Shown here: positions 2,909-43,135 of the stretch, piece by piece
Layout of the letters: each line of letters starts with the position of its first letter
Numbering within the stretch: the stretch's first letter is position 1
Source of the DNA: Lepidurus packardi
Taxonomy: Eukaryota > Arthropoda > Branchiopoda > Notostraca > Triopsidae
Assembly: GCA_023053545.1 (NCBI GenBank)
Contig: JAKZAN010000004.1
Location: forward strand, 8,928,001-8,992,000
Length of the DNA stretch: 64,000 nucleotides
Direction: 5' to 3'
Position numbers and translations under genes: made by a program
The notes under the pieces: model-generated
Database searches by the model: none
The model's input: the letters and a program-made list of their open reading frames with translations, nothing else
What the model was told of the DNA's origin: nothing

Positions 2909-2993
2909 GTTCTTGTACAAAATAAACAAAAGCAATGTATGAATCGTTCGATATCGACAAAGGAGATAAATAAACAAGGGACGGAGTTAAGTT

Positions 2994-3022
2994 TAAGTCT
3001 GGGCACTAGAGTACTCGCTTTA
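2994..3022 (+). repeat. 29-base junction repeat, copy 1
   Basis: A 29-base sequence begins TAAGTCTGGGCAC and ends ACTCGCTTTA. It directly precedes the left end of the first Harbinger-like element. It recurs exactly at 4620-4648, between the two elements, and with one mismatch at 16718-16746, just outside the right end of the second element. Confidence 0.8.
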
Positions 3023-3225
3023 TACCGATTTTCACTGGCTACTCTGGAGTACTCTTTTTCACTCCGAGTAGCGACGGCGTCTTTCACTGAGCCAGCCATT
3101 AGTTACTCTTGTTGACGCCCTTCACTGGAAATCTCACTCCGTTTCGAGTCAAAAAGAGTACCCTCGGCTACCCCGTCTTTGAAGTCGGAGTAGGATATCC
3201 AGAGTGCGTTCGTTTGGCGGGAAAC

Positions 3226-3450
3226 ATGGATCCAAATAGAGAGAAATTGTTGATTGCTTTGCTTGAAGAAACGTCTTCAAGTTCCAGTGGTGATAGTGAC
3301 GAAGAAAATTATGGAAGAATGATGTGTATGCTTTTAGCAGAAAGATCCGAAGAGTCAAAACCCAGAATTCCAGATTGTATATCGAATGTGCACAAGTACT
3401 CAGATTGGGAAGTATGTAGCATATCTGTTCCACACAGAGGCACAGTTTAA
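3226..3450 (+). pseudogene. Harbinger-like transposase N-terminal fragment, copy 1
   Basis: This 74-residue open stretch starts MDPNREKLLIALLEE and is followed by a Ser/Asp/Glu-rich segment. It is almost identical to the copy at 4853-5077. The reading frame probably splices after DWE, where the sequence reads GTATGT, so the last few codons are likely intronic. It is a fragment because no complete catalytic domain follows in this element. Confidence 0.6.
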
Positions 3451-4397
3451 TAATAATTTTGTTAACAGTTTAAACGAAACTTTAGGATTACTCGGCAAGT
3501 TTCAGAGCTGCTAATTGACATGTTTACAAACTCCCAGCACTTCCCAAAGTGTTCATCGCATGGAGGGAGTCCTGTAAAGTCGGCCGAATGCCATATCCTT
3601 TCGTTTCTTTGGTAAAACTATTTCTTCTTTAGCCTAACTCAAATCTTTGTAGGTTTGCTGCGAATAAAGCGTGTTTGCGCGACACGGCTGACCGATTTGA
3701 TATATGTGAAGCAACCATGTCCCGCCTAATGGATAGAGCCCTTCTTTTCTAATGGAAGGAGCCCTTCTTAAACGAAGTGGCTCCAAAATTTATTTGTTTT
3801 CCGTGTACAGTAGAAGAACAAGAAAAAGTATCGCATGATTTCTACAGAGTAAGCATTAGAGCATTATGTATTTGAAGCAAGTTTCCAAAGCAAGTCTTTG
3901 GTTCAGCTCGCCTTCATACTCGACGTGAGCTCGGGTATTTCCAGTTCTTCTGTTGTTGTCTATAGCTGCCTTCTTTCGCCTCACTACGGTCTTATACCGG
4001 CTTTCTTCCAGGTTCGTGTTGATGATAATACTGTAGCCAGGTCATTCGAAATCGGTTCCCACATATTTGTTTTCCTTCGGAACTTTTTCATCGGGCCTAC
4101 TTGTTCTATATATTGATTGTACTTATCCAATACAAATTTCGTCTCGCTTTCCGACCACTCGCATGCCGCCGGTTTTTTAGTCAGTTCAGGACTTCTGCTG
4201 TGGCTTCTTCTTCTCGTTCAATGATTCCTTGTTCTTCAAGGCATTTTCTTGACACAACCTGCCCTTTGATTTCTCCTAACATATTTCCGAATCAATGTAG
4301 AGGATTTTTGCAAAACAAATACAGAATACCTTCAGCTAGCATTGAGCAAAGAAAATCGCTTCCTATCATTGCTAAACCACCTTCACTTGTATGTATA

Positions 4398-4619
4398 AAT
4401 TCCTGAAAAACCGCCATTTATTTCAGTAAAAACTTCTAAGAAAAAACGTAAGTTGCGCGGGCAAAAAGCATAAACAAGTATGGCTGCGGTTTACCCCTAA
4501 AGTTACCAGCGCTCTCCACTGGGAGTAGCGAATCCGAGATCTCACGGCGAATCTGCAGTTTCGGAGTACGCTTTGCCAGAGTAGAGTGACACTCTCAGAG
4601 TGGCCAGTGAAAATCGGTA
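4398..4619 (+). repeat. Right end of Harbinger-like element 1
   Basis: About 220 bases, beginning AAATTCCTGAAAAACCGCC, recur nearly identically and in the same orientation at 16491-16712. Both copies end in the inverted complement of the left terminus found at 3023 and 4649. This marks them as right termini of one transposon family. Confidence 0.8.
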
Positions 4620-4648
4620 TAAGTCTGGGCACTAGAGTACTCGCTTTA
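4620..4648 (+). repeat. 29-base junction repeat, copy 2
   Basis: Identical to 2994-3022. It is the whole spacer between the right end of element 1 and the left end of element 2. Confidence 0.85.
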
Positions 4649-4852
4649 TACCGATTTTCACTGGCTACTCTGGAGTACTCTTTTTCACTCCGAGTAGCGA
4701 CGGCGTCTTTCACTGAGCCAGCCATTAGTTACTCTTGTTGACGCCCTTCACTGGAAATCTCACTCCGTTTCGAGTCAAAAAGAGTACCCTCGGCTACCCC
4801 GTCTTTGAAGTCGGAGTAGGATATCCAGAGTTCGTTCGTTTGCGCGGGAAAC

Positions 4853-5077
4853 ATGGATCCAAATAGAGAGAAATTGTTGCTTGCTTTGCTTGAAGAAACG
4901 TCTTCAAGTTCCAGTAGTGATAGTGACGAAGAAAATTATGGAAGCATGATGTGTATGCTTTTAGCAGAAAGATCCGAAGAGTCAAAACCCAGAATTCCAG
5001 ATTTTATATCGAATGTCCACAAGTACTCAGATTGGGAAGTATGTAGCATATCTGTTCCACACAGAGGCACATTTTAA
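4853..5077 (+). pseudogene. Harbinger-like transposase N-terminal fragment, copy 2
   Basis: This is a near-identical copy of 3226-3450, opening MDPNREKLLLALLEE with the same Ser-rich and acidic stretch. It is part of a 535-base direct repeat (4620-5154 versus 2994-3527) that ends abruptly at GTTTAC in both copies. A likely splice donor GTATGT follows the DWE codons. Confidence 0.6.
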
Positions 5078-5156
5078 TAATAATTTTGTTAACAGTTTAA
5101 ACGAAACTTTAGGATTACTCGGCAAGTTTCAGAGCTGCTAATTGACATGTTTACTA

Positions 5157-5617
5157 CCAGCGCTTTGCGGCAGTGATTTCCACGTACTTGGTAAGTTGAG
5201 TTTACTAAGTGAGCATTGAAACTGTAGACGTGAACCTTTCATGCTTAGGGGATTCTGCCTATCCATTAACCGAATGGCTCTTAACGCCCTACAAAGATTA
5301 CGGAAAATTAACACCCCGACAGCGTGTATTCAACCAGAAGCTCAGTTCTAACTAGGGTGAAAATTGAACATGCATTCGGGTACCTTAAGCAAAGATTCCG
5401 TCAGCTTATTCGTTTAGACTTTCACACGGTGGATAAAGCTTCACAGTTCATCATTGCGTGCTGCGTACTGCATAATCTGTGCATCCGTCACAATGACTTC
5501 GGTAGTGACCTTTTCAATGAGGCTAATGTTGATGTACCCGAAAATGACCAAGGCCCTCTAGAAGATCGCCAACTGAATTTAGGGGTTGCCGGTGAGGCTC
5601 GGACATGCCCAGACTGA
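5157..5617 (+). pseudogene. HARBI1-type (DDE_Tnp_4) transposase C-terminal fragment, frameshifted
   Basis: An exon piece ends at 5190 on FHVL, followed by a 58-base GT-AG intron (5191-5248). It then continues with GDSAYPLTEWLLTPY and, after a frame break near 5340, IEHAFGYLKQRF and CVLHNLCIRHND. GDSAYPL and the Glu of the EHAFGxLKxRF motif are the second and third acidic positions of the Harbinger DDE catalytic triad. The frame changes between FNQKLSS and TRVKIEH, so the gene is broken. The first catalytic Asp region is not present nearby. Confidence 0.75.
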
Positions 5618-6894: not shown

Positions 6895-6955
6895 ACCCGA
6901 TCGGAGACCCGATCAGAGACCAGATCAGAGACCCGATTAGAGACCCGATCAGAGA
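6895..6955 (+). repeat. 12-base minisatellite, arm 1 edge
   Basis: About five copies of the unit GATCAGAGACCC with point changes. The array sits at the outer end of arm 1. The corresponding array at 16270-16490 is several times longer and extends past the arm boundary. Confidence 0.85.
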
Positions 6956-7752
6956 TTAATAATAATTAATTTTAATAAATAAATTATAATTACTTAATAA
7001 TAATAAATTAACAATATGCAAAAGAGTTCGATTTGCCATGAACAGGCAGAGAACGAGTAGCCACAAGTCGAATACAACTCGGTAAAAATGGCTAAATTCA
7101 GACACGACATTCGACAATATTTCATCGTTTTTTTATCCGTTGTTAAAGCAGTGAAAAGTTGTCAAATTCCCGTATTTCCTCCCACGTTTCGTGTTTATTA
7201 CTGGTAATAGTGCGCTGTTTTTGGAATAGGTAGTATCTACGCTTAATTCTCAGGACGCCTCAAAGGTAACAGAGAAATAAAAAAAATAATGCTAAATAAT
7301 ACTAAGAAAACAGTTAACCCTGATGATTCACTTTCATTAAGTCTAACTAGTTAAAAAATTGTACGGAGAAACGACTACGAAGTATGTGGGCCACGATCGA
7401 TTTTTGAAGCACGTAGTTGTTTGGGATGTAGTGAACGCATTTCTCCCGAATCTTGAAGCACATACGCAGCTTGAAGTCTGGATTCAAAGAATTGTATTGT
7501 TCGAACCCTCTTTTACCCATATTAGCAATATAAATATTTTAATATAATAGTGCCCTTGAAGTAAAAAAGGGGAAAGACAATACACTCATAAAAGGTTGGC
7601 AGTAAGTAAGAAAAAGAAGCAAGAAGAAGCTGAGCTACTGTGACAGGCCGAACATGGAATGCGCCGATACAGGTCTCTTGATGGCGCCTTAGCTGATCTG
7701 AAACGAAGAATTCAAGCTTTTGAGTTATTCATGTAAGAAGACAAGTATTTAC

Positions 7753-9246
7753 CTATGGATCAATGTATTGACCCTGCTGCTGGGCTTGAGCTTGGTATTG
7801 ACTCTGGTATTGCGCATTGCAGGGTTTAGGCTTTCCGCAGGGTGTTTCAGGCTTGGCAGCGACCTAAGAAAGAAACTTGGTTAATGAAACGAAAGAAACA
7901 AAATTTAAAAACTAACCTGTACTTGATCCTGTGACTGTTGCTGAGCTTGCCATTGGGTTTGAGCCTGAGCCTGTGCTTGTTGCTGAGCTTGTACCTGTGC
8001 CTGTTGCTGAGCTTGCCATTGGATTTGAGCCTGTTCCTGTGCCTGTTGCTGAGCTTGCCATTGGGCTTGAGCCTGTGCCTGTGCCTGTTGCTGAGCTTGT
8101 GCCTGTGCCTGTTGCTGAGCTTGCCATTGGGTTTGAGCCTGTGTCTGTGCCTGTTCCTGTTGCTGAGCTTGCCATTGGGTTTGCGTTTGCTGTTGGGTCT
8201 GGGTCTGACTTTGAGATTGTTGCTGAACCTGCTGTTGAACGTGGTCTTGGCATGGCCTTACGCAAGGCTTTCGGCAAGGCTTGATGCAGAGTTTTACGCA
8301 AGGCTGTCCGCATGGCTTAGGCGGATGAACTTGCTGTTGGGTTTGCGATTGTTGCTGTGTTTGCGATTGACTTTGCTCTTGCGATTTGGTTTGAGTTTGG
8401 GATTGTTGCTGAGTCTGCTGTTGAACTTGCGTCTGTGCTTGTTCGGCACATGGTATCCCGCAAGGGTTTTCGTGGTTCACTTGTACTTGCTGCTGTTGTT
8501 GAGCTTGCGATTGGGCTTGGACATTTTCACGTCCGACTTGGGCTTGAGTTTGCTCTTGAGTCTGTTGTTGAAATTGGTATTGCTGCTCTTCCGTACAAGG
8601 CTTGCATGGGGTGCAAGGTTTTTCGCAGGGCTTCTGTCCTTGAGTCTGAGCTTGAGTCTGAGTTTGCGATTGGGATTCGGATTGCTCCTTGGATTGCGCC
8701 TGGGATTGTTGCTGCGTCTGCTGTTGAACTTGGGTTTGTTGTGACTGCTCGCATGGCTTGTAGCAGGGTGTCTGGCAAAGTTTATAACAGGGCTCGTAAC
8801 AGGGCACATAGCAGGGCGTTGGACAAGGCTTTTGTGCTTGGTCCTGACTTTGTGTCTGGGCCTGGCTTTGGTGCTGAAATTGCGATTGCTCCTGGTATTG
8901 TTCCTGGTATTGTTCCTGGTATTGACCCTCATCATCTGGGTGGTAAGAGCCATCGTCTTCTACCTGGTATTGAGCCTGCGCCTGGACTTGCGCCTGCGCT
9001 TGACTTTGCGTAGGATAGTACCACAATGCCGATCTTCCTTCTCTGGCAGTCTGACCGAATTCGATGGAAGCAGCAGCAACTTCTTGTGCTTTATCCTGAG
9101 AAATACAGGAAAGATACAAATGTAATTATATTTATCTTATCCTGCACTAGAAGTAAAAATTGTAAACTTACGTTGGCTACCGGAAGGGAAAGGCATCTTT
9201 CAACACAGGCCAATACGGCCAGGAGAAGAACGGCTTTGGATACCAT
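7753..9246 (-). CDS. Secreted glutamine-rich Pro-Cys-module protein, short copy (454 aa)
   Basis: Three coding exons: 9246-9172, 9095-7917 and 7863-7753. The first encodes a cleavable signal peptide, MVSKAVLLLAVLACVERCLS. The mature chain opens DKAQEVAAASIEFGQTAREGR and then alternates long QxQ stretches (QAQ, QSQ, QTQ) with short Pro-Cys modules such as PCYVPCYEPCY, KPCTPCKPC and KPCRKPCVRPC. It ends GQYIDP. This copy is the mirror image of 13425-15473 but lacks 185 residues, including three Pro-Cys modules. The loss lies between two direct repeats of the coding sequence. A TATA box sits at 9354-9347. I do not recognise a family. Secretion, cysteine clusters and low complexity suggest an extracellular structural, adhesive or coating protein, which is inference only. 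Confidence 0.85.
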
Positions 9247-9346
9247 GGTCTCTCTCGCAAGATGTATACCACTCAGAAAAGTTGCTTCTTGTTAGTTAGA
9301 AGACAAGCTACTGAGCTGGAATGATTATCAGGTGTTCGCGGCGAAG

Positions 9347-9354
9347 TATTTATA
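9347..9354 (-). promoter_or_regulatory. TATA box of short Q-rich gene
   Basis: TATAAATA on the minus strand lies 101 bases upstream of the ATG at 9246. It mirrors the element at 13317-13324, so both gene copies keep the same core promoter. Confidence 0.7.
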
Positions 9355-9529
9355 CCCAAGAATGTCTTGGGCTTCTTACCTGTACTTGACATTACCAGCG
9401 TCCTTGCCCCAACATTGCGACCTTTGTCCTTGGGTCTATACGCTATAACCTAGAGATGCGGTTTTTTTTCTTATTAACTAGAGGATGACCCAGGTTTTCT
9501 GCGAAGGGCACCACTACAAGTTCACCTAA

Positions 9530-9683
9530 AACTGACTTCGCGACATTACTTGCGGGCTCCACTGTACGCCAAGCGTTACCCGCGCTGTCCAAACCGCCTC
9601 GTATGGTCTCATTGCAAGGAGAAAGCCCACGTCGGTTGGGCAGCGTCCTTTAATGGCGCCATAAAAAAAACGGTATTTTTTTA
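9530..9683 (+). repeat. SINE-like interspersed repeat, truncated copy
   Basis: Shares blocks with 53228-53575: ACTTGCGGGC, CTGTACGCC, ACCCGC and a CCAAACCGCCTCGT-type segment. It shares the ATGGCGCC segment with 20327-20640. Only the 5' half is present, and it ends in an A-rich then poly-C tract. It lies just 18 bases from the inner edge of arm 1. Confidence 0.55.
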
Positions 9684-9850
9684 CCCCCCCCCCCCCCCCT
9701 TCGGTCATTAACCGTCACTTTTGGCTTCACCCCTCCCCACGAAATGGCGTCAGCACCAGATTGAACCCCCCATGTAATAAATATAAGTTGTTGTTTTTTT
9801 TTATAAAAAAAAATCCGTTGTAATAAGCTCCGAGACTTCTTAACGAAGTT

Positions 9851-10360
9851 CTAAACACATGTAAAATTCTTCAACTCCGACTCCGACCTCCATGTGATAA
9901 GCCAGTCCTCCATAACATGTTTGTCATCCAGATCAATTACAGGGAAACGACCCTCAGGGTTTAGGAAAGTACTGGCCTGAAACGGTATTCCTGCTGTTTC
10001 AGGCCCTACGTCTGCTTCAGGCCACCACTCAACCTCTTCAAGCTCCCCATCTTGGGACCTGGCTTGAACCAATATCTCGTCGGCACGAGCATCTATAATC
10101 ATTCTTGGGGTAAGACCTCCCATGAACTCGGTTTGCTTAGTTATTCGGTTATTTTTCTGGTGAATTGCAGCTAAATGAGACTGCAAGCTTTTCCTGGTCG
10201 CAAAATATAACCCAGAAAATCAAAACACAAAAGTACGATAAAAGACAGATTAAGAAAACGAAATGTTTTTCACATACCTGCAAGTTCGTTTACTCACGGA
10301 AGAGCCTTGGGATGGGCAGAACCAATCGTACGGAGCACAGTATAGAGGTTTCACAGTATG
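9851..10360 (-). CDS. Possible gene fragment with zinc-finger-like residues (orphan)
   Basis: Two minus-strand exons can be joined in frame, 10360-10278 and 10193-9851. They give a stretch containing YCAPYDWFCPSQG, then RKSLQSHLAAIH, then an acidic tail with EEVEWWPEADVGPE and a stop. The RKSLQSHLAAIH segment resembles the second half of a C2H2 zinc finger, and Cys residues precede it, but the spacing is not canonical. The 5' part is not found. It could be a remnant of a transposon gene or a real orphan; the splice sites (AG before 10360, GT after 10278) are plausible only. Confidence 0.3.
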
Positions 10361-11449
10361 CTAACAGGGCTATCTTCCAATGTTGAGGTTTTCTGACGAC
10401 CTTCTCGGTCCCCCGAGTAATATTCAGGTAAAAGGCCAGAAAATGAAAGGGTACATTCGCAAACCTCCCAGTGCAGTTCAAAAAAGGTCACGACGGTTTA
10501 CAAAGCGCATAATTTAAATCTATTGCTTTGAACTATGTGAGCTTAAAATAAAAGATGAATTAACTAGGTCAAAGCACAACACGTATACACATTATAGACT
10601 ATTTCGCTTTACCCAGGTTGCACCACGAGGAGGCAGTCTATTTTTCAACCCATACATAGGTGTTTTATAGTATACAGGTTTAACCCCATATGCTATAAAA
10701 TACCCATGTATATTAATGTCTATATGTGTTGTTATGACTATTTATGTCTATATACGAGTTATCCATTACATTGGTACTTTACAACTATTGGTACTTTACA
10801 ACTATTCCTAAATGTTACTAACTTTTGCAAGTTTAGTATTTTTCTTAACACGTTTAACTACGGCTCTTTCTGCTACAGCTACATTTTCTTCTTTAAGTGT
10901 ATAGTAAATCCTAACTCGAACGAATAAATTAAAAAAATAATCAACTGGAAAAGCTTCGCATGTCAATTCAGATAAACCAAGCAGTTTAAGTTTAGCAACA
11001 ATAACACTAACTATCCCTGGCTCACAAAGGGATTCCTGATAAACGGACTCACTTTGTGAACGTGAAAAACGGACTCACACAATGTGAACGTGAAAGAGAT
11101 TACCGTAAGACTTTAATACCAAGATCCATCATAATCATTTCTGGGAGAAAAACTTTCGAATTCGCGCAATGCTAGTCGAATCGTACGTCAGCCCCAAACT
11201 CCCTAGAGAGAAAGGTCACCAATCCCCGTTTTGTGAATGTTTTGTTCTCTTTTCGAACCCTTTTTGTAGTAGATTTGGAATGCCTACTTCTGGGGTAGGA
11301 TGGGCAAGTCTGTGAATCCATCCCTCCTATGTTCCTTGTTACCCCCACATCCTCTTGAGACCGAGAAAGTCGTCTTAATCCCTTTACATTGGAAGATACC
11401 CCCAGTTACCATACTGTGAAAACCTTTATACTGTGGTTAAGACGAGCAC

Positions 11450-11788
11450 AATTTTTTTTTTTTTTATCAAATTTTGACTCGATATTCGAGCGATATCTTA
11501 ATATACGAGCAGTACATGCTGTATAGTACCGTGAATACGCTGCATTACTCATATAGTGCACCACCAAATAAGGCTGTAGCAGTGCGAGCGATGAATCTAT
11601 CTAGCGACAATGCAATGTCAAATTTGAGCGCAATCGTTTTTATGTAGAAATTTTTGGGTTTTGGAACGAATTATCTGAGTTTCCTTTGTTTCTTATGGGG
11701 AAATTCGCTTTGATGTAAGAGTGATTTGGATTGCGAGCACGTTTGCGGAACGAATTAAGCTCACAAACCGAGGTTGACTGTAGATATA
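11450..11788 (-). mobile_element. DNA transposon terminal relic (Tigger/mariner-like)
   Basis: The stretch near 11670-11785 has the look of a Tigger- or mariner-type terminus: GGAACGAATTA, then TTTGATGTAAGAG, a repeated GCGGAACGAATTAAG, and a terminal GACTGTA. It has no coding capacity. Its left limit is unclear. Confidence 0.4.
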
Positions 11789-12538
11789 CAGTGGTGCTTC
11801 GCATAGCGAACGTTCCGCATTACGAGCGCGCGCGCGGGACGGAAAATAAACGCTCTGTTTAAATAAAGGCACGCGCGCGTGTTTAAACGCACGCGCACGT
11901 GTTTAAATAAACGCACGCGAGGTGTTTTTTTTTTTTTTTTAACTTTCAAATTTATGGAAAATTCAGTTCTTTTTTAGTGTTGTCAAAATGGCACCTAAGA
12001 GGACCGTTAGTGGGAAGAGTAGAAAGGCACTTATTACTGAAATGAAACAAGAAATCATAGATAAAAATGATCAGGAGCTAGAGTTATAGATCTTGCAGCT
12101 GAATATGGAGTGATCAAGTCAACCACAGGAATAATTTTAGCCGATAGAGTCTCAAGAGTTTGTTTTCTCAGGTGTACATAAAATCGGTTACTGATGAAAT
12201 GAAGAGGTCTTTGTTAGTTTGGATTAATGAAAGTAGTTTTAATCACGCAGGAAATAATTTGTGAGAAAGCTAGGGTCATATATGGAGAGCTTAAAAGATC
12301 CACTCCAGGAACAAACTCACAAACCTTATAACAGGAGGAAGAGTCATTACGGGCTGGTTTCATAGGTTTAAGAAAATAAGTGGCATCGAAAGTGTCATAA
12401 CGCGAAATTACGTTTTTTCGCGATTTTGGACCGGCCTCGCAGGGAACGGATCAAAATTAGTCCCATCGTAACTCATGGGAAACGGCGTCCCACATAACGA
12501 GCGATTCGCAAAACGAACGACGTCCTACAGCACGACTG
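11789..12538 (+). mobile_element. Tigger/pogo-like transposon relic
   Basis: The ends are CAGTGGTGCT at 11789 and the complement of CAGTCGTGCT at 12538. From an ATG at 11988 the sequence reads MAPKRTVSGKSRKAL, followed after frame breaks by a helix-turn-helix-like segment resembling DLAAEYGVIKSTTGIIL. That is the start typical of Tigger (CENP-B type) transposases. The catalytic domain is absent. A TA dinucleotide precedes the left end but is not duplicated on the right. Confidence 0.6.
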
Positions 12539-13316
12539 TTCTACAGCATGTATTTTTTCAATTCAAAACCTTACTCTCCCTTTAATCAACTTTCGTAATA
12601 TAAAATTATTTTTATTTTCCTGATCATTCATACAAGCTCATGGGAAAACTAAAAGAATCAAGAAAACACGTTGGGGATTACAGGCAGTAGTGAGTTTACC
12701 CAGTTTGGGTCAAGTTCGCTGAAAGAAAAGAATTTCTCTGCAGCTTTGGTACTCTTGATTTCGGTAAGTCCTTCGTCACCTACAAGGGCCGTCGGGAGAT
12801 ACTTCCAGGCAACTTAGCTTAGGATACCCAACATTCTGGAGGGGCTACAGTCACACGTTTTTTATTTATTTCGTAATCCTTCCTGGCATTTCACTCATTG
12901 AAAAATTTGCCTCTCTGAGCTTACACATTTGCCCAAACAGAGATGCGGCCAGCCCAGACCCCTTGCATGAATCCACAGCAGAATCATAGCCTGCTTTCTA
13001 GCATTCTGTTCAAGGGTCATAATCTGCCGTCTGCCGAGCTGCAGATTATGACTCCTATCACGTAAGATCTGTTCGATCAAATCTGGCTTTCTGAAATTTC
13101 AACAGGGCCAAATGAGACAACCTTTGCCACAAATATGCTACAAAGTCAGACATATCACGGTGCCCTTCGCAGAAAACCTGGGTCATCCTCTAGTTAATAA
13201 GAAAAAAAAACGCATCTCTAGGTTATAGCGTATAGACCCAAGGACAAAGGTCGCAATGTTGGGGCAAGGACGCTGGTAATGTCAAGTACAGGTAAGAAGC
13301 CCAAGACATTCTTGGG

Positions 13317-13324
13317 TATAAATA
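13317..13324 (+). promoter_or_regulatory. TATA box of long Q-rich gene
   Basis: TATAAATA lies 101 bases upstream of the ATG at 13425. An initiator-like ATCATTC follows about 30 bases downstream. A strong TATA box would suit a gene expressed at high level in one tissue, which is inference. Confidence 0.7.
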
Positions 13325-13424
13325 CTTCGCCGCGAACACCTGATAATCATTCCAGCTCAGTAGCTTGTCTTCTAACTAACAAGAAGCAACTTTTCTGAGT
13401 GGTATACATCTTGCGAGAGAGACC

Positions 13425-15473
13425 ATGGTATCCAAAGCCGTTCTTCTCCTGGCCGTATTGGCCTGTGTTGAAAGATGCCTTTCCCTTCCGGTAGCCAACG
13501 TAAGTTTACAATTTTTACTTCTAGTGCAGGATAAGATAAATATAATTACATTTGTATCTTTCCTGTATTTCTCAGGATAAAGCGCAAGAAGTTGCTGCTG
13601 CTTCCATCGAATTCGGTCAGACTGCCAGAGAAGGAAGATCGGCATTGTGGTACTATCCTACGCAAAGTCAAGCGCAGGCGCAAGTCCAGGCGCAGGCTCA
13701 ATACCAGGTAGAAGACGATGGCTCTTACCACCCAGATGATGAGGGTCAATACCAGGAACAATACCAGGAACAATACCAGGAACAATCGCAATTTCAGCAC
13801 CAAAGCCAGGCCCAGACACAAAGTCAGGACCAAGCACAAAAGCCTTGTCCAACGCCCTGCTATGTGCCCTGTTACGAGCCCTGTTATAAACTTTGCCAGA
13901 CACCCTGCTACAAGCCATGCGAGCAGTCACAACAATCCCAAGTTCAACAGCAGACGCAGCAACAATCCCAGGCGCAATCCAAGGAGCAATCCGAATCCCA
14001 ATCGCAAACTCAGACTCAAGCTCAGACTCAAGGACAGAAGCCCTGCGAAAAACCTTGCACCCCATGCAAGCCTTGTACGGAAGAGCAGCAATACCAATTT
14101 CAACAACAGACTCAAGAGCAAACTCAAGCCCAAGTCGGACGTGAAAATGTCCAAGCCCAATCGCAAGCTCAACAACAGCAGCAAGTACAAGTGAACCACG
14201 AAAACCCTTGCGGGATACCATGTGCCGAACAAGCACAGACGCAAGTTCAACAGCAGAGTCAGCAACAGTCTCAAAACCAAACTCAATCGCAATCCCAATC
14301 TCAAACCCAATCCCAATCTCAAACCCAATCACAAGAACAAATCCAGACTGAAAAACCCTGCGAAACTTGCTACCAACCTTGCTATGAACTCTGCTACGAA
14401 CTGTATTACGAACCCTGCTATGAACCCTGCTATCACACTCAGCAACAATCCCAGGCGCAATCCCAGACGCAATCCCAGACGCAATCCCAGACGCAATCCC
14501 AGGAGCAATCCCAGGAGCAATACCAAGCGCAATCGCAATCGCAAACCCAAGTTCAGACTCACACTAAAGAACAGAAGCCCTGCGAGAGACCTTGCACCCC
14601 ATGCAAGCCTTGTAAAGAAGAGCATCAATTCCAATTTCAACAACAATCCCAGGAACAAGCGCAAGCCCAATTAGGACGCGGAAATTTCCAAGCCCAATCA
14701 CAAGCTCAGCAGCAGCAGCAAGTCCAAGGGAGCAGACCTTGTGTTCCTACATGCGGAATTCCGTGCTGGGTACCGTGCTCCGAACAAGCGCAGACGCAAG
14801 TTCAACAGCAGACTCAGCAACAATCCCAAACTCAAACCAAATCGCAAGAGCAAAGTCAATCGCAAACACAGCAACAATCGCAAACCCAACAGCAAGTTCA
14901 TCCGCCTAAGCCATGCGGACAGCCTTGCGTAAAACTCTGCATCAAGCCTTGCCGAAAGCCTTGCGTAAGGCCATGCCAAGACCACGTTCAACAGCAGGTT
15001 CAGCAACAATCTCAAAGTCAGACCCAGACCCAACAGCAAACGCAAACCCAATGGCAAGCTCAGCAACAGGAACAGGCACAGACACAGGCTCAAACCCAAT
15101 GGCAAGCTCAGCAACAGGCACAGGCACAAGCTCAGCAACAGGCACAGGCACAGGCTCAAGCCCAATGGCAAGCTCAGCAACAGGCACAGGAACAGGCTCA
15201 AATCCAATGGCAAGCTCAGCAACAGGCACAGGTACAAGCTCAGCAACAAGCACAGGCTCAGGCTCAAACCCAATGGCAAGCTCAGCAACAGTCACAGGAT
15301 CAAGTACAGGTTAGTTTTTAAATTTTGTTTCTTTCGTTTCATTAACCAAGTTTCTTTCTTAGGTCGCTGCCAAGCCTGAAACACCCTGCGGAAAGCCTAA
15401 ACCCTGCAATGCGCAATACCAGAGTCAATACCAAGCTCAAGCCCAGCAGCAGGGTCAATACATTGATCCATAG
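13425..15473 (+). CDS. Secreted glutamine-rich Pro-Cys-module protein, long copy (639 aa)
   Basis: Coding exons are 13425-13499, 13576-15309 and 15363-15473, all phase 0. Exon 1 encodes a signal peptide (residues 1-20, core VLLLAVLAC) ending near CLS. After a short leader with YYPTQSQ, QxQ-rich segments alternate with Pro-Cys modules at about residues 114-142, 180-195, 234-241, 284-312, 358-372, 411-426, 469-496 and 609-618. Tyr accompanies Cys in modules 1 and 4, and Lys/Arg in module 7. The protein ends GQYIDP. The stop codon is immediately followed by a donor-like GTAAAT, with an acceptor near 15528, so the 3' UTR may be spliced. No known family is recognised. The pattern fits a disulfide-cross-linked extracellular material, but that is inference. 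Confidence 0.88.
14236..14790 (+). repeat. 555-base segment present only in the long copy
   Basis: The sequence starting at 14236 (CAGACGCAAGTTCAACAGCA) recurs at 14791, exactly 555 bases later. Arm 1 retains only one copy of that repeat and lacks the 185 codons between. This is the signature of an in-frame deletion by recombination or slippage between direct repeats, or of a duplication gain in arm 2. Confidence 0.85.
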
Positions 15474-16269
15474 GTAAATACTTGTCTTCTTACATGAATA
15501 ACTCAAAAGCTTGAATTCTTCGTTTCAGATCAGCTAAGGCGCCATCAAGAGACCTGTATCGGCGCATTCCATGTTCGGCCTGTCACAGTAGCTCAGCTTC
15601 TTCTTGCTTCTTTTTCTTACTTACTGCCAACCTTTTATGAGTGTATTGTCTTTCCCCTTTTTTACTTCAAGGGCACTATTATATTAAAATATTTATATTG
15701 CTAATATGGGTAAAAGAGGGTTCGAACAATACAATTCTTTGAATCCAGACTTCAAGCTGCGTATGTGCTTCAAGATTCGGGAGAAATGCGTTCACTACAT
15801 CCCAAACAACTACGTGCTTCAAAAATCGATCGTGGCCCACATACTTCGTAGTCGTTTCTCCGTACAATTTTTTAACTAGTTAGACTTAATGAAAGTGAAT
15901 CATCAGGGTTAACTGTTTTCTTAGTATTATTTAGCATTATTTTTTTTATTTCTCTGTTACCTTTGAGGCGTCCTGAGAATTAAGCGTAGATACTACCTAT
16001 TCCAAAAACAGCGCACTATTACCAGTAATAAACACGAAACGTGGGAGGAAATACGGGAATTTGACAACTTTTCACTGCTTTAACAACGGATAAAAAAACG
16101 ATGAAATATTGTCGAATGTCGTGTCTGAATTTAGCCATTTTTACCGAGTTGTATTCGACTTGTGGCTACTCGTTCTCTGCCTGTTCATGGCAAATCGAAC
16201 TCTTTTGCATATTGTTAATTTATTATTATTAAGTAATTATAATTTATTTATTAAAATTAATTATTATTA

Positions 16270-16490
16270 ATCTCTGATCGGGTCTCTAATCGGGTCTCTG
16301 ATCTGGTCTCTGATCGAGTCTCTGATCGGGTCTCTGATCGGGTTAACAGACGTGCACTTTGATCGGTCTCTGATCGGGTCTCTAATCGGGTCTCTGAACG
16401 GGTCTCAGATCGGGCCTCTGAACGGGTCTCAGATCGGGTCTCTGATCGTGTCTCTAATAGGGTCTCTAATCGTGTCTCTGATCGGGTCTT
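16270..16490 (-). repeat. 12-base minisatellite, arm 2 edge (expanded)
   Basis: Roughly eighteen irregular units of the complement of GATCAGAGACCC. The first five match the array at 6895-6955. The remainder extends beyond the inverted duplication and abuts the right-end repeat at 16491. Confidence 0.85.
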
Positions 16491-16712
16491 AAATTCCTGA
16501 AAAACCGCCATTTATTTCAGTAAAAACTTCTAAAAAATCCGTAAGTTGAGCGGGCAAAAAGCATAAACAAGTATGGCTGCGGTTTACCCCTAAAATTACC
16601 AGCGCCCTCTACTGGGAGTAGCGAATCCGAGATCTCACGGCGAATCTGCAGTTTCGGAGTACGCTTTGCCAGAGTAGAGTGACACTTTCAGAGTGGCCAG
16701 TGAAAATCGGTA
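16491..16712 (+). repeat. Right end of Harbinger-like element 2
   Basis: Nearly identical to 4398-4619 and in the same orientation. It ends in the inverted complement of the 4649 terminus. Confidence 0.8.
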
Positions 16713-16717
16713 AAATT

Positions 16718-16746
16718 TAAGTCTGGGCACAAGAGTACTCGCTTTA
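16718..16746 (+). repeat. 29-base junction repeat, copy 3
   Basis: Matches 2994-3022 and 4620-4648 with a single T to A change. Here it lies five bases outside the right terminus of element 2 and continues into GACTTGCC rather than into a new element end. Confidence 0.8.
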
Positions 16747-19988: not shown

Positions 19989-20748
19989 TTTTGAAGGAGA
20001 AAGAAGCACTAGAAGTTTTCAATCATTCTACTCGAATTTTATTTATTTTTCTGTAGTTGTAAAGTTTGTATTTTATTCAATAGATGGCGTAGTCAAACTT
20101 AACTGTCACAGAGATTAAAGATAGATATAGAGGGCTGTTTCGCGGAAGCTTTTAAATAAGTTTTTTGGCGCGAGAACACACGCGTTAGTTTAGAAGACAA
20201 AAAAGAAACAATATACAAGGACTTATATATAATTAATATATAATACATAATTAACTATGGAACTACTATCTAATTAAATAGTTCATATAGTCCATAATTA
20301 CATATAAAAACCACACTTGTTAAGAACTTAAGAACGCCACGTAGGAAGCGTTACTCCCATAGTGGGAACCGCGACGTTCGGTCCCATTGCGAGGGGATAG
20401 GCTCTAGACTGCGAAGCCAACCCGAAACCTGCCCACAGGCTCTCAGGCGCGGATCTCGGCCCGGCGGGACGGGGATCGCGTGATGGCGCCAAGAAAACGT
20501 CATATTTTGTGATTGAGCTTGTAAATTAATCCAAACACCTAAAGACTTGTTTAAGCATTCAAAAGAAAAACAAGGATGCCACCCCTATGAGATCAGGGAT
20601 TGATTTTCAATGCGCTCATAGATAAAGTCGCTAGCCCCCCTAGGCCTCCATTTTTTTGCACCTTACCCCCCCTTTAACGCAAGCTTAAAGCTAGCTTTAG
20701 CTCAGGTTTTGAATAATGAGAAGCAAAATAAAGAAAAATCTAATTTAA
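19989..20748. promoter_or_regulatory. Divergent intergenic region between PCM1 and RMI2
   Basis: The two genes are transcribed away from each other, so this 760-base interval probably holds both promoters. Part of it (20327-20640) is occupied by a GC-rich interspersed repeat. No TATA box is obvious. Confidence 0.45.
20327..20640 (+). repeat. SINE-like interspersed repeat, long copy
   Basis: Shares ordered blocks with 53228-53575: a TCTCGGCCCG segment, GAAGAAAACGT, AAAGACTTGTT then AGCATT, and GATTTTCA then GCGCTCA. It shares a GTGATGGCGCC-like block with 9530-9683. The copies have the same orientation. No tRNA-like A and B boxes could be confirmed, so the class is open. Confidence 0.55.
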
Positions 20749-22621: not shown

Positions 22622-25600
22622 ATGAGTGTAACGAGTATAAAAGACGATTATATGCAAATTAGGGTACCTGAAATACAGAAATTATTGGACAGAGATCAGT
22701 ACTTGAAGCCTTTCGAGAAAGAAATTCGTCGGAGGTGGGTATTTTCGTTTTTTTTTGCTTATCCTCGTCCTTCGCACTCGATGACGTAGGACGTACACTG
22801 TATTCCTTGTTTGTAAAAATAGGTACGGATTGTTCCGGAACTTTGTGATTCAAATTGATGGTTGTGAGGGGGGCCTGGATCAGTTTACACGAGCTTACGA
22901 CTATTATGGATTCCACGTGAACCCAGATAAAAGCGTAACTTGGAGGGAATGGGCTCCCGGAGCTGCTGCTGTTTACCTCCGAGGCGATTTTAGTACGAAT
23001 TTACTTACAAACAATTAAGCTAGTAAGTCTAAGAAATTATTTTAATTAGACGGATGGAATCAGACGTCCCATGCATTTGACAAGTTATTATTTGGCAAAT
23101 GGGAATTGCAAATCCCTGCCTTGGCCGATGGATCTTGTCCAATCAAACACGGATCAAAGGTCAAGATTGTGGTCAAGACAGCTCAAGGGGAACTCGTGGA
23201 TCGCATTTCGCCGTGGGCTTCTTATGTTGTGAAGCCCCCAGTAAATGAAGGCATTGCTTACCAGCACCAAATCTGGAATCCACCATCAGAGGAAGTAATT
23301 TCTGTTATTAAATTCGTCTTCTTTTACGTATAAAAAGCGACTTTTTTTCTGTAGACGTATAGTTTTAAGCATGCAAGTCCTGCCAGACCGGAGAGTCTTC
23401 GCATATATGAGTGCCATGTAGGCATTGCTTCGTCAGAGCCCAAAGTCTGTTCGTACAACGAATTTAGCCAGAATGTCCTACCACGCATTGCCAGATTAGG
23501 CTATAATGCCATCCAAGTGATGGCCATCCAAGAACACGTCTATTATGCTAGTTTTGGGTATCAAGTTACAAATTTCTACGCAGCTTCGAGGTGAAAAACT
23601 CTCTATTATGTTCCTTGGACTAAGTTTACAAGTTATTTAACGTTTTTAGTCGTTATGGAACGCCAGAAGAACTCAAAGCTCTAGTAGATCACGCTCACTC
23701 CTTGGGATTGTATGTTATGTTGGACGTGGTCCATTCCCATGCTTCCAAGAACGTCCTAGACGGGCTCAACCAATTTGATGGGACCAAGTCCTGCTTTTTT
23801 CATGATGGACCACGTGGAGAGCACCCTTTGTGGGATAGTCGGCTGTTTAACTATTCGGAATGGGAAACTGTACGTTTCCTGCTATCTAATCTGCGCTGGT
23901 ATATGGATAAATACCGTTTCGATGGCTTCAGGCAAGTTTATACACCCCTGGTCTACAAAATAATTACATTTCCTTATATGTTTAGGTTTGACGGAGTAAC
24001 TTCCATGTTATATCATCATCACGGTATTGGGACAGGTTTTAGTGGAGATTATAACGAATACTTTGGCTTGGCAACTGACACTGAAGCCCTCGTCTACTTA
24101 ATGTTGGCGAATCATTGCCTCCATACTCTAAATCCCAATACTATAACAGTTGCAGAGGTAAAACGTCGCTTTTCTTCGATTTTTTCGATTTTTTTCTCTG
24201 ATTTTTTTCGAATAGGGCATAGTAATCCATTTTTGATGGTTCTATAGGATGTTTCAGGAATGCCTGCCATGTGCAGGCCAGTAGAGGAAGGAGGCAATGG
24301 CTTTGACTATCGTTTGGCCATGGCCATACCCGATAAATGGATCCAGCTCTTAAAAGAGTTTAAAGACGAAGAATGGGATTTGGGCAATCTGATATTCACG
24401 TTGACTAACCGTCGTTGGATGGAAAAAACCATCGCATATGCCGAATCCCACGACCAAGTAAAGGAACTTGCACCATTCGGTTGTTCTGTGTTTTAAATAA
24501 TTTGTGTACAAGTACGTTTTGTATGTAGTTTCTATTGGTTATAACATTGTGTTTTAGATAATTTTTATGTGTTTTTTGTTTATCTTAGTTTGTTTTTTAT
24601 GTATACTATTTTTTTAAGAATAGTTTTGTTTCATTTTTTAAGCTTTATTATTATTTGACATTATTTTGTCCTTTTGTTTTCAGGCTCTGGTGGGGGACAA
24701 GAGCATCGCGTTTTGGCTCATGGACAAGGAAATGTATACGCACATGTCATTGCTATCCGAACCTTCGCCTGTCGTCGACCGTGGCATTGCGTTGCACAAA
24801 ATGATACGCTTAATTACCCACGCCTTGGGTGGCGAAGGCTACTTAAATTTCATAGGTATCCATTATTGTTCTTAAATTTCTTAAAACATTGGAAGCTCTT
24901 TCTAAATTTACTTTGGGATTTAATCATTGCAGGCAACGAGTTTGGACATCCAGAATGGCTTGACTTTCCTCGCATAGGCAATAACGAATCTTTCCACTAT
25001 GCCCGGAGACAATGGAACCTGGTAGACGATCCATCTCTCAAATACAAGTTCTTGGCTGCATTTGACGCTGCTATGAATGTTACCGAAGATAAATATGGTT
25101 GGCTTCACAAGGATTCTGTAAACATGAGCATTAAATTATAGCTTTTTTTTACAAAATATTTTATATTGTTAGGGATATGTGAGCACAAAGCATCAGGAGG
25201 ACAAAGTGGTCGTGTTTGAGCGAGCAGGATTGGTTTTCGTCTTCAACTTCCACGCCAACAAGAGTTATACTGACTATCGTGTGGGCGTCCATACCGCTGG
25301 CAAGTACCAGATCGTCTTGGACACTGATACTGCTGAATTTGGCGGCCATGGCCGCTTGGATCACAAAACGGACTTCTTTACTTCCGATCAAGGTTTCGCT
25401 GGACGCCAGCACTCGCTCATGGTACGTATAAACCCTGGTTTTGTGGCTTTAATTTTGTGAGTTTTGGTCGAGAATATTATAGGATCCATTGGGATTAACC
25501 TTGGGCGATTATTTCGCTTTGCATGAAGGCTACCTGGCGGGCTTCAACCCGCCAGAATTAAGTCGTTACGCACCTAAACATTCCGTTCGGGTATGTTTTG

Positions 25601-26757: not shown

Positions 26758-29700
26758 TTAAGTCGTTATTAGTAAGTAAACGTTCATGTCATCTTTGCCT
26801 TTGACGTAAACCGTTCCCCGCTTTTCGAACGAATACTCAGGCTCCAAGTACGTAAGACAAGCCTCCGCCGTCTGGATCCGTCCGTTAACGCCCGTGGAAT
26901 CCATTCGACTAGCGATATTCACCGCGTCGCCCCAAATGTCGTAATACAGCTTGGTGGTACCAATAACACCTGCGGTGACGTCACCAATGTTGATTCCGAT
27001 GCGCAGAATGAGATTAAACTCGAGCAGATCTTGGTTGAAATCTTGGATAGCTTTTTGCATATTCAGCGCGAACTCGACGAGCTCGTAGAGGTGCTGATGC
27101 GAATGCACATTGGTAGCCCGTACTTCTGGATTGAGTCCCGATGCCGCCATGAAAGTAGAACCGATTGTCTTAATCTTATCCACATTTCTGAACTCGGGCC
27201 GTGCCAAAAGCTCATCGAAATCACTAATGAGCTCATTGAGTACCCTTAAGTACTCTTTCCCTCCCAAGTAGGACTCGTCGTACATCTCGTTGAAGTTGAC
27301 AATGCTCGCAAAGAGAATCCCTACGTCCTTGTAGTTCTCCGAGTACTTTGCCGTGGCTTTCAGCTGCTCGACCACATGTCTCGGGATTATATTGTTGAGC
27401 AGCCAATCCGCTTGGTCTTTGAGCGTCTGAACCTTGGCCTTGCCCCTCGCGGCCACGGTATTGCAGTGGAAACTGAGCCTAAAACTGATTTCTGACTCCC
27501 GATTCAGAAATACGACTAAAAGGAGCAATAATAACAGATGCAGGATGAATTCATAACAGGAACGCCATTCCCAGAGGTCGTCTTCTTCTTCTGATTGGTT
27601 TAAACCCTGCATTTGGAGCGTGAAATTCGAATCGGCGGAATCACTGAAGGAAACGAGTCCATCCAAGCTAGTTTTGATGACGCAGGGACAAACTGGCACA
27701 GAAACCAGAACCATAAGGATCATCGCAGCCAAGGCAGCCAAACCGGACTTCATCCAACAATTCAGCTGCGTAAAATTGCAGAAATGGACCACGCCCAGCG
27801 TTACCAAATACCAGAAGACCCGCGGAAGCTCTTGGTCGTCCGTCTGGACGACTTGGCAGGAGAAATTGGCCAAAACAGCCACGATGGGCCAAGCTAGCAT
27901 GACCGCTCCGCAGACGTGCCAAGGATACCACTTCATGAAGCGATTGTGTAGTCGATCAAGCCAATGTACGGCTGGTAGGCCGTGACGTAGTGCCCAGAGC
28001 TGACGTAAGCAAATAACTGACATGGCTAAGTGGCCGAGGACGGCGACAGTAAAGATGACGAGCCAGTGGATCGAGAGCTGAAAGTGCAGGAAACAAGCCA
28101 GAGAGACTACCAAGAAGACGAAATAGGACACGAAAATGTCCAAATACGTGTTATACGCAGGAGAAACGAGGGTTAAAGGACTGCCGGGTACGTCAGGCTG
28201 GTACGCTTTGGCGCGGTACTCATTTTCCATGTCCTGATCGACGAAAAAGAGCGTTAGTTGGCTCAATGGCGGTTTCATGAAGTACACGCGGTGCGATTCG
28301 TCCTCTTGAATGCAGCGAATGAGCTGCAGATCCGATTGTTTCCTTAATTGATGGAATCGGGAGAGACTTTCGTGTAGAGGCATCTCGTTTTCCTCGTCGA
28401 CTTGTACGATTTCGATGCTGCTCTCTGGAGACAATGATTCTAAGCGAAGAAAAGATCAAAACGAGGCTTCTTTTGAAAGGTTTTGCATAATTACTACTAT
28501 CTTCAAGTTCCATCGAGTTGTGACTGGCACTTATGCCCCGCCCATTGAGCTGGCTGCCTAAGGTACTGCGTTTACAAGACTCCATTGAGGGAAACAAGCT
28601 CAATTCATCCAGGATTCCATCTTTGCTAGCTGAATAAACCCGGGGCAGGTGAATCCTCCCTACAAAAACACACAGTTCTTAAATTCTAAGGATTTTGGCA
28701 GATAAAATGAGTGAAAACCTTCACGATCTTGGGTTAAAGGATGCGATTCATCCACTTCTGTATGGCAGCCCGATCGTTTCCGGCTTTTTTCTTGACTAAT
28801 GGAGCGACTGCGTAAGTTAGAAGGACTGGCATCATCTTCTACTATATTTGGCATCGAAGAACACTTCTTGGGATTAGATTCGCTCGAGGATAAGGACGAA
28901 TGAGGCCTGGAATTTAAAGGCATGGTTTCTGCATTGGAATCGTAATCCAAATGATGGCCCAATATAAAGTATGTCCGGAAACCTACAAATAAAACCGACA
29001 TAAAACGAGGAAAATTAAATTAGCTAAAATAAGCCAATCAAAAAGGGAGAACAACGGAATAAACTCAAATAAATCAATTAAAAATCAGGAAAATAGGGGA
29101 AAAAAATCACTAACCATGATATAGTTCACCAAGTTCCACCAAGTATTGGGAAGGTTGTAGGAACTTATACGTCCATTCCGTGACGTGGACTTGTCCAGGT
29201 CGTCCCGTCGATTCCATTTGATTAGCTAAGGTGACGTCATTAGACCAGACGTCGAACTTGAACCGTTTGCTGCCGACGATTCCACATAATACAGTACCAG
29301 TATGGACTCCGACGCGCATGGAGACGTTTTCTTTGCGATCTCGGTCAAATTGGTGGATCGCCTCAATCATGCTCAAGCCCATGTTAACGCAGCAGGTGGC
29401 GTGATCCGCCCGAGGCTCCGGGCAACCAGAAACGCAATAATAGCAGTCGCCCAATGTGGAAATCTTCTCGCAACCGTTTTGACCGCAAAGAAGATCAAAA
29501 CGGCCGAAAAGATCATTCAAAAGACCCACGAGCTGCTCCGCAGTCTTGTTGGAGCTCATCCGCGTGAATCCGACGATATCCGCGAATAAAATGCTCACGT
29601 TTTCCATCCGGTGCATGTTAAAGGGCCGGAAGATGGAGCGCAGGTCACCAGTGTGCGAAGTACGCGGGGACGAGATCTTCCGCCCACTATTGTGCCGTTC

Positions 29701-30537
29701 GCTGCTCTCTTCGTGTCCTTCATTCATAAGCCAGTCTGCGACCTTGGGGGGCATGACTGAGTGGATCATCTTCTCTTTCAGCTGCTTTTCGAGCTCCAGT
29801 TCGCGTCGGACCATAAGCAGCAGACCTACTTTCATAAAAGTGCAGCGCATGCGCACTTGGGTCATAATATAGATATGGATGCCGATCATATGAACGCAAA
29901 CTTGGAGCAAAACGCGAGTGACTAAGGAAGAAGGTAGCGTATCGCAGGCAAAAGTGTCTGAAATGGCTTCGACTGCAATTGAATACAAAAGACCCATGGT
30001 TAGACACATGTAGAGTGGTAAGGGGATTACGGTGTAGATGAGAAGCAGGACTTCAGTGGCGAGTGCAAAGAGGCCAGCTGAAGAGACGTCACCCATGTGG
30101 GCGGTGCCTCGATTGCATGTGAAGAAGGCGGGAATGGTGGCGACACATAAGGCTGTGGCTACCGTGAGCGAGAGAGGGAAATGATAGCGTTCGTAGTGCC
30201 GGGTTAAGGTGACGAGGAAAATGAGCAGCGAGAGGAGTAGGACTAAGGCGGAGGCGGAGCTAAAGGCAATCCAGTGGTCGTCGTCGGAAGGCGCGACGCT
30301 ATAGTAGACGCACCAGGCGAGTGAGACGAGGCAGATGTAGGCTAAGGCGTACTGGAACCGGAGATGAATCTGAGGGAATGTGCTACGCCAGTATTGACCT
30401 TCCAAGATGTCCGAGTCGAACTTGGGAACCCACCAAGACTTGGAAGCGCGCTCGAAGAGCAGAGATTGACTGGTCCCGCTCCGAGTTCGACACGACGAGC
30501 GTCTCATATTGTAATGAGGAGCAGAGGTTTCTTCCAT
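26758..30537 (-). CDS. ADCY9: Membrane adenylate cyclase type 9 (Ac13E-like, 1177 aa)
   Basis: Makes cAMP from ATP downstream of G proteins at the plasma membrane. Exons are 30537-29115, 28982-28719, 28659-28495 and 28439-26758, in frame. The N-terminal [16 protein letters not shown] is the ADCY9 hallmark. Six membrane segments lie at about residues 60-240. The C1 domain is at about 310-475, with metal-binding Asp in FADIVGF (320) and TLGDCYYC (364). A variable Ser-rich linker spans exons 2 and 3. The second membrane bundle runs from about 680-900, and the C2 domain from about 985, with [25 protein letters not shown] and [17 protein letters not shown]. It lacks the long human C-terminal tail and ends soon after [11 protein letters not shown]. 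The start is the first ATG in a good context. It is divergent from the CBP gene. Confidence 0.95.
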
Positions 30538-32155
30538 CCTGGTTTTACGTAAAGCGGTTTGAGATTATTTGTTGATCTTGACAGTCATAGAGCTATGCCA
30601 AAAGAAAGAAGAGATTTTCTGATTAAATTAAAGCATAGGTGTAGCTGTTGCGTGTTGGATTTTAGGAGATTTCTTTGATTAGATTAGATTTACTTACGCA
30701 GAGTTGGAAGGTAAATAGCGGGATAGGGTTTTTGGTTTTTAGAGTAGCAACTCATAAAACTGAGCAACCCGTCCCACATCCCATGGCTTAATTCGAGCTC
30801 AAATTTAACGTTTAATCGGAAATTATTGTTATTGTTGACACCCAACTACAGCTGCCAGGGAGAGTGGGCAGGCATTACACATGGGGGAGGGCTCATTTGG
30901 AGATTGTTCGCTTCGTTTCTTCGACGAAGTTCAATTTTTATTCGTGTGTCTCATCTGAGGTTTCCGTTTTGTATTTCCCTCGCTAGAATAAGATATAATT
31001 TCAAGAAGTATAAGAATTAAGAAAGATAGCGAGAGGATAAGAATGCGAACAATGAACTCCGAAATTTATTCATTTATACGCGACAAATACAAAGTCTTAA
31101 CCTCAACAAATTATTTCCATTTCACAACATACAGATTTAATATCAGATAAGAAAAGAATATTTGGAAATATGGGGAAGAAACACGACATTCTTTTGTAAT
31201 AATGTCTAATTCGAATTTTTTGAATCCCCAGAGGGATCTAGAGTTTGCTCATACGTTCGCCAGATTTCGCTAGGAGGCAAACAACCGAACTACAACGCCA
31301 ATGAAGGAATTTTAAACCGTCACGTGCTACTGGTAGGCCAATGGCCGCTTCGCTTTCCTCCCCCTGCTGAGGGGGTTACGCGGCCTGGGCCGAGAGTAAT
31401 GGGCAGGTTTTCCATCAACAGCCGCCATCTTGACCGAGTCGGTTTTGGCCTGAAAATAAAGATTGTGTAGTCTTGACGTAAGATTTAACCCTACTTTTTC
31501 ATGTCAAGAACGCTGTGTAAAGTGCAATTTACTTAATAAAATGTATTGACGAGCCTTTGGGTGCGAAAAAAAAATCAATGGTCTTATATGTATATGCGAT
31601 GGCTTGGTGAAGCAAGCCAAAAAGGGGAACATTTACAGACCTGGTGTGTATGTGTGTAGATTACGCGGACTGCATATATCTTGGAAAAGTACGAAATAAC
31701 GATGGCAAGCGAAGCTTGACTAAAGGTAAATCACATTTATTTTATTTCTTAAAAATATACAAAGGTAATTTTTATTAGGTAAAAGCCAATTGGGCTTTTT
31801 CTGAGTGGTGAAAAAGAGCTTGGTGAACTTGTAACTGTCACACCAAACGGGTTATTAAGTTATACCGGGACTTTTACCTTCTCGTGTTTCAGTACGAAAA
31901 TTAAAATTATAGGTATTAATCCAAGTTTGCATTTGAATTTCCTTTTTGCTTTTAGGTTAAGTTTGGGGCTAGATGAAGCAGGTCTGTGGAATGGCTGCAG
32001 TTATCGTGTGTCCAGCCAAGACACAGCTTTGCATTGGTTTAGTTTGCATCTCTTCCTTACTGTCTCTTGGACTGCTAGGGTGATTCTTCGTTTTACCCTG
32101 CTTTCCTTCAGCGTCCGTCTTTTAAGAAAATACATCATTATAAACCAAGTTGACT
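30538..32155. promoter_or_regulatory. Divergent promoter region of adenylate cyclase and CBP
   Basis: This 1.6 kb region separates two divergent genes. A CpG-rich patch at about 31310-31450 probably marks the CBP transcription start. An acceptor-like pyrimidine tract before 31955 suggests a spliced 5' UTR. No coding exon was recognised here. Confidence 0.5.
31421..31432 (-). promoter_or_regulatory. YY1/Pho-type motif in CBP promoter region
   Basis: GCCGCCATCTTG is the complement of the AAGATGGCGGC core of YY1-family sites. These sites commonly occur near start sites of TATA-less housekeeping genes. It lies in the CpG-rich patch upstream of the CBP coding start. Confidence 0.5.

Positions 32156-43104: not shown

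Positions 43105-43135
<31 letters not shown>

Follow-up and report, generated by a model that had tools for sequence, protein, structure and literature searches.

Gene conversion maintains the likeness of some palindromic gene pairs, those of the human Y palindromes among them. In Drosophila, the pairs Hsp70Aa/Ab, Hsp70Ba/Bb and Amy-p/Amy-d are close paralogues in mirror-image orientation that have undergone long-term ectopic gene conversion (PMC3924832; this paper and those below are cited from excerpts of their texts). In Caenorhabditis elegans, the majority of the youngest intrachromosomal duplicates (KS = 0) are adjacent and inverted (PMC4546093, citing its ref. 13), and for the palindromes of the arthropod Folsomia candida a wide range of Ks was taken to argue against concerted evolution (PMC5490193).

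Regarding the encoded protein, the louse nit-sheath glue proteins LNSP1 and LNSP2 offer, in their polyQA domain, the nearest analogue that we found in the open-licence literature. These proteins carry a signal peptide and an alternating Gln-Ala domain, are expressed in the female accessory gland and go back to a recent duplication; according to their authors, the polyQA domain is expected to adopt strands whose Gln residues lie on one side (PMC6328571). A study of the tsetse spermatophore names, in its excerpted form, just one Gln-rich protein, in a table. Here we describe an inverted gene pair of the branchiopod Lepidurus packardi, found within a window of 64,000 nucleotides (the whole stretch analysed; contig JAKZAN010000004.1, positions 8,928,001 to 8,992,000). 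We consider it likely that this pair arose by a recent inverted duplication of a gene for a secreted Gln-rich protein, followed by a deletion in the left copy, and that it provides two size variants of an extracellular protein.

Arms and gene models of the inverted repeat

The sequence-only reading of the window had described two reverse-complement arms with a spacer of 3646 bases, head-to-head gene copies and one indel of 555 bases, all of which were confirmed by alignment (Table 1). More specifically, every base of the left arm (2618/2618), taken as its reverse complement, was placed against the right arm in a global alignment with a single gap, the 555 bases missing from the left arm, and six substitutions (right/left positions 13210/9461, 13584/9087, 13782/8889, 13936/8735, 16317/6909 and 16323/6903). 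The self-alignment that had been proposed as a check on arm identity accordingly gives 99.77% over 2618 bases. Two of the six substitutions (16317/6909 and 16323/6903) lie within the terminal 12-mer array, outside which the arms are 99.84% identical (4 substitutions over 2557 bases); the longest run without any difference measures 1526 bases. When the window was compared with itself by BLAST, the inverted match was returned in two pieces, 14494-16331 against 8708-6895 (96.1%) and 13159-14292 against 9512-8379 (99.0%), and both identities are underestimates because each piece extends beyond the 555-base gap. These pieces scored 2979 and 2034 bits. By comparison, the window was shuffled 10 times at the mononucleotide level, a control that does not preserve dinucleotides, and the top inverted match per shuffle reached 28.8-38.1 bits.

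The near-identity spans coding and non-coding sequence alike, up to sharp edges. Counted from the alignment and outside the array, differences are found at 3 of 1365 coding positions and at 1 of 1192 non-coding positions. The three coding substitutions are Ala/Ala, Glu/Glu and Ser/Thr (two synonymous, one replacement) and the fourth lies upstream of the gene, while both introns and the 3' flank preceding the array are free of differences. At the inner edges, the arms agree from their very first base onward, with no match in the positions immediately before. The outer surroundings are different on the two sides, with a TTGTA-type microsatellite next to the left arm and more of the 12-mer array, followed by a transposon-like end, next to the right arm.

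Each arm contains one complete open gene with a TATA box, three coding exons and a 3' flank, and the predicted products are 639 aa (right gene) and 454 aa (left gene) long. Splice signals, TATA box and reading frames are unbroken in both copies. The correspondence of exon, intron, TATA box and 3' flank coordinates between the arms, noted in the sequence-only reading, was found again in the gene models, in which the exon ends, the TATA box, a putative 3'UTR intron and the ATTAAA site occupy mirror positions. The two start codons are 4179 bp apart, and on the upstream side each arm extends about 190 bp beyond the likely start site, so that both genes face one common spacer. Both genes are predicted to be expressed.

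Table 1. Positions of the arms, genes and internal modules within the window
Feature	Position	Strand	Details
Left arm, shorter gene copy	6895-9512	-	2618 bp; self-BLAST and global alignment
Right arm, longer gene copy	13159-16331	+	3173 bp; self-BLAST and global alignment
Unique spacer	9513-13158		3646 bp; upstream of both genes, with transposon-like stretches
12-mer tandem array, outer end of left arm	6895-6955		about 5 copies
12-mer tandem array, outer end of right arm	16271-16489		about 18 copies; continues beyond the arm end at 16331
Left gene, TATAAATA box	9347-9354	-	initiator-like motif starts at 9324
Left gene, exon 1	9172-9246	-	
Left gene, exon 2	7917-9095	-	
Left gene, exon 3	7753-7863	-	with stop codon
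Left gene, putative 3'UTR intron	7752-7698	-	counterpart of that in the right gene; splice signals only
Right gene, TATAAATA box	13317-13324	+	initiator-like TCATTC at 13347-13352
Right gene, exon 1	13425-13499	+	signal-peptide-like
Right gene, exon 2	13576-15309	+	Q-X repeats and Pro-Cys clusters
Right gene, exon 3	15363-15473	+	with stop codon
Right gene, putative 3'UTR intron	15474-15528	+	55 bp, GT...CAG, just after the stop; splice signals only
Right gene, ATTAAA site	15684	+	counterpart at the mirror position on the left
Segment absent from left copy	14236-14790	+	555 bp (185 codons)
Internal repeat module A, right gene	13963-14292	+	
Internal repeat module B, right gene	14494-14847	+	78.5% identical to A
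Deletion junction, left gene	8414-8435	-	22 bp; coordinates derived from the arm alignment

Repeats and transposon relics are present around and between the arms. A direct repeat of 538 bp (2991-3527 and 4617-5154, 98.3% identical) is located beside a transposon relic with a DDE_Tnp_4 piece at 5315-5614 (Pfam) and, on the minus strand at 3987-4217, a Myb/SANT-like piece that is weak and falls under the curated cut-off; we take this relic to be of the Harbinger kind. A transposon-like end is found in two copies of the same orientation and 94.6% identity, one to the left of the left arm (4396-4648) and one abutting the 12-mer array of the right arm (16490-16746), and may have helped local rearrangement. 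Within the spacer, an inverted-repeat pair at 10336-11435 (84 columns, 81%) flanks 1.1 kb that is probably a small DNA transposon. Additionally, terminal-repeat-like ends and a short open stretch were recognized by eye at 11790-12540, presumably a Tigger/pogo-like relic, for which the two pieces scanned gave no Pfam match.

Elsewhere in the window, the annotation includes an alpha-amylase-domain exon (23624-24247; by eye, of a glycogen branching enzyme), an adenylate cyclase gene on the minus strand (26758-30564), whose two open stretches encode two catalytic domains, and a CBP/p300-like gene on the plus strand (32305-43815). The extent and the Q-rich stretches of the latter were judged from open reading frames, and its bromodomain, HAT_KAT11, ZZ and TAZ domains are placed by Pfam at 37.7-41.4 kb. 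Together with the introns and the TATA-plus-initiator promoter of the gene pair, the CBP/p300-like and adenylate cyclase domains point to an animal, and the promoter motif and overall appearance of the sequence suggest an arthropod. A dispersed repeat (20334-20640 and 53279-53577) is weak, with 64% identity over 308 columns. Over the whole window, searches for RNA genes gave no Rfam match at the gathering score and no tRNA.

The 555-base difference between the copies

The 555-base event is an in-frame deletion of 185 codons in the left copy that took place after the arms had split. The right gene contains two internal repeat modules, A and B, and the left gene corresponds to module A as far as a 22-bp stretch common to both modules and to module B from there on. 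This 22-bp junction sequence occurs twice in the right gene, at 14236-14257 and at 14791-14812. Because identity is 78.5% between A and B but 99.8% between the arms, the two modules were present before the duplication, and the deletion in the left copy came after it. An insertion of 555 bp into the right copy was rejected on the same comparison, as the module pair predates the split. After the copies had separated, the left one would have lost its 555 bp by recombination or slippage between these older, diverged repeats. When the two modules were compared codon by codon (136 aligned, of which 63 are identical, 28 differ synonymously and 45 non-synonymously), dN was 0.22 and dS 1.20 (NG86). These values are rough given the loose alignment at the end, and their ratio suggests constraint at the protein level over longer times.

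The encoded Gln-rich protein

Gln makes up 36.6% of the right product and 37.6% of the left product. The N-terminus is hydrophobic and signal-peptide-like, as judged by eye from the translation, and the product is predicted to be secreted. In the right product, a Gln is followed two residues later by another Gln with a frequency of 0.79, compared with 0.36 in shuffled sequences (z 15.8, 1000 shuffles), and one residue later with a frequency of 0.24 compared with 0.36 (z -5.0). Of 178 Q-X-Q triplets, 132 have Ala, Ser, Gln or Thr in the middle. The Gln codons are mixed (138 CAA and 88 CAG), and the composition is therefore not that of a fresh CAG expansion. The right product also contains 35 Cys, 30 of them in Pro-Cys, which within clusters follow each other in steps of mostly 3 or 4 residues. 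Gaps between the Cys clusters are near-regular, measuring 42-51 residues in six of seven cases in the right product and 42-46 residues in three of four cases in the left product, with a last gap of 120 residues in both. By analogy, the (Q-X)n stretches may fold into strands that present Gln on a single face, and the spaced Pro-Cys clusters could cross-link chains through disulphides. By the same kind of analogy, the product may be an extracellular material protein such as a glue, silk, sheath or similar.

Searches for relatives were conducted at several levels. The 578-residue product of exon 2 had no Pfam match at E 0.01, and the first 150 of the 639 residues had no match in PDB at E 0.1. No relative of these 150 residues was found in prokaryote genome contigs (122 pattern matches, none confirmed), nor of the N-terminal 59 residues in a viral contig collection (18 pattern matches, none confirmed); both collections are without animal genomes and their null matches therefore mean little. 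In the rest of the window with the arms masked, no further paralogue was found by tblastn (4 rows, best E 0.59) or by blastn (17 rows of at most 34 bp, best E 0.048). A search of the open-licence literature for exact occurrences of five peptide motifs from the protein found none. We propose, only tentatively, that the protein represents an undescribed arthropod family of extracellular materials, in which (Q-X)n strands would be stapled by Pro-Cys clusters spaced at 42-51 residues. The length and copy number of its founding gene would now be changing by inverted duplication and block deletion, giving two size variants of a bioadhesive or silk with one common upstream region.

Origin of the pair and comparison with known systems

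In the explanation that we prefer, a recent event would have copied the whole gene, along with roughly 190 bp of sequence preceding its likely start site, to a place about 4 kb away and in inverted orientation. The two resulting genes would be transcribed divergently, away from the common 3.6-kb spacer. With both copies open, the pair would most likely supply an extracellular material protein in two sizes. The sequence-only reading had likewise proposed that a single secreted Q-rich gene was duplicated head to head in inverted orientation, and the arms and open gene models support this. All parts of the arms are about equally alike, which fits a young duplicate, and the duplication appears to be recent. 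Without conversion, a divergence of 0.16% (4/2557; 95% Poisson range 0.04-0.40%) would place it at about 0.28 million generations (0.08-0.72 million), assuming a mutation rate of 2.8e-9 per site per generation. The shorter of the two 12-mer arrays, a kind of sequence that changes length easily, may point to the left arm as the inserted copy.

For maintenance by gene conversion, raised in the sequence-only reading as something that can happen to such pairs, little at this locus speaks positively. We consider it unlikely that the pair is an older palindrome whose arms are held alike through continuing conversion, as in Drosophila Hsp70 or Amy. Selected gene amplification was named in the sequence-only reading as another setting in which such pairs arise. 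Inverted close paralogues do convert elsewhere, sometimes including introns or non-coding sequence (PMC3924832, PMC3966223). Conversion in Caenorhabditis extends into introns, and for the C. elegans hsp16 inverted repeat the authors favoured conversion over recent duplication (PMC3966223); in Drosophila kikkawai, Amy3 and Amy4 are alike in non-coding sequence as well, which was read as conversion or duplication (PMC3924832). At the present locus, all four substitutions outside the array fall within the first 778 of 2557 bases counted from the inner edge (P 0.009 one-ended and 0.017 two-ended, post hoc), a clustering that could reflect a conversion tract over the outer part. However, homogenisation in the melanogaster-group Amy genes is confined to coding sequence while the flanks evolve independently (PMC3924832), whereas here the likeness of the exons is equalled in the introns, the promoter and some 800 bp of the 3' flank, up to the sharp edges. 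By the counts given above, coding sequence is not more alike than its flanks, and the 555-bp difference between the arms persists without having been homogenised.

An artefact of assembly or amplification, be it a fold-back chimera, a missing-adapter read or two alleles joined inversely, is in our estimate very improbable. The locus is represented by one assembled sequence only, and a divergence of 0.16% between the paralogues falls within the range expected of alleles. A fold-back chimera would, however, mirror everything outward from its loop, and here the homology ends on both sides with flanks that differ. Moreover, 3.6 kb of unique spacer separates the arms, and the difference between them is a clean deletion with older repeats at its ends and not random error. 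The argument made earlier, that unequal arms oppose a simple artefact, is upheld and is joined by the spacer and the different outer flanks, on which a fold-back or missing-adapter origin was rejected. It is hardly credible that the arms are the terminal inverted repeats of a gene-carrying mobile element in the style of foldback elements or giant transposons, even with 12-mer arrays at both outer ends, inverted-repeat pairs within the spacer and transposon-like sequence nearby, namely the DDE_Tnp_4 relic left of the left arm with its end recurring beside the right arm. The scan of one arm piece and three spacer pieces gave no Pfam transposase, and no target-site duplication was seen by eye at the arm edges, of which the outer ones are blurred by the 12-mer array; on these two grounds the arms were rejected as transposon ends. 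In addition, the outer end of the right arm falls inside a continuing array, and the cargo is a host-like gene with introns and its own promoter. The locus looks like a real, ordinary, young inverted gene duplicate, and its protein is the more interesting part.

Compared by description, not by alignment, LNSP1, LNSP2 and the present protein have in common a signal peptide or signal-peptide-like start, alternating Gln-X repeats (two-residue Gln-Ala/Ser repeats in the LNSPs), indels from copy to copy and a duplicated gene, and only the louse system has a Gly-Ala domain, a polyQ domain and genes in a tandem array (PMC6328571). In our translation, neither a Gly-Ala middle domain nor a C-terminal polyQ domain (runs of 5-10 Gln) is found; instead, unlike in the LNSPs, regular Pro-Cys clusters stand between the Q-X blocks. 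The protein looks like an unfamiliar secreted repetitive design of alternating Gln stretches and regularly placed Pro-Cys clusters.

With the Drosophila Hsp70 and Amy pairs, the present genes share close paralogy and mirror-image orientation (PMC3924832). Those pairs are under long-term ectopic conversion, whereas here flanks and introns are as alike as coding sequence, so that the likeness can be explained without conversion. A nearer match than the melanogaster-group Amy pair is D. kikkawai Amy3/Amy4, in which the resemblance extends to non-coding sequence (PMC3924832). Folsomia candida is likewise an arthropod with inverted duplicated gene blocks, in 11 palindromes, but its blocks hold several genes each and can be far more diverged, with a Ks of 0.2 in the Dscam2 palindrome (PMC5490193). 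In some animals, such as C. elegans, duplicate genes commonly originate as inverted adjacent copies. Like the young duplicates of that species, the present pair is adjacent and inverted, and here one copy is already without an internal block (PMC4546093 for C. elegans); the pair looks young enough for the in-frame loss of this block, the first large change that it underwent, to be read directly.
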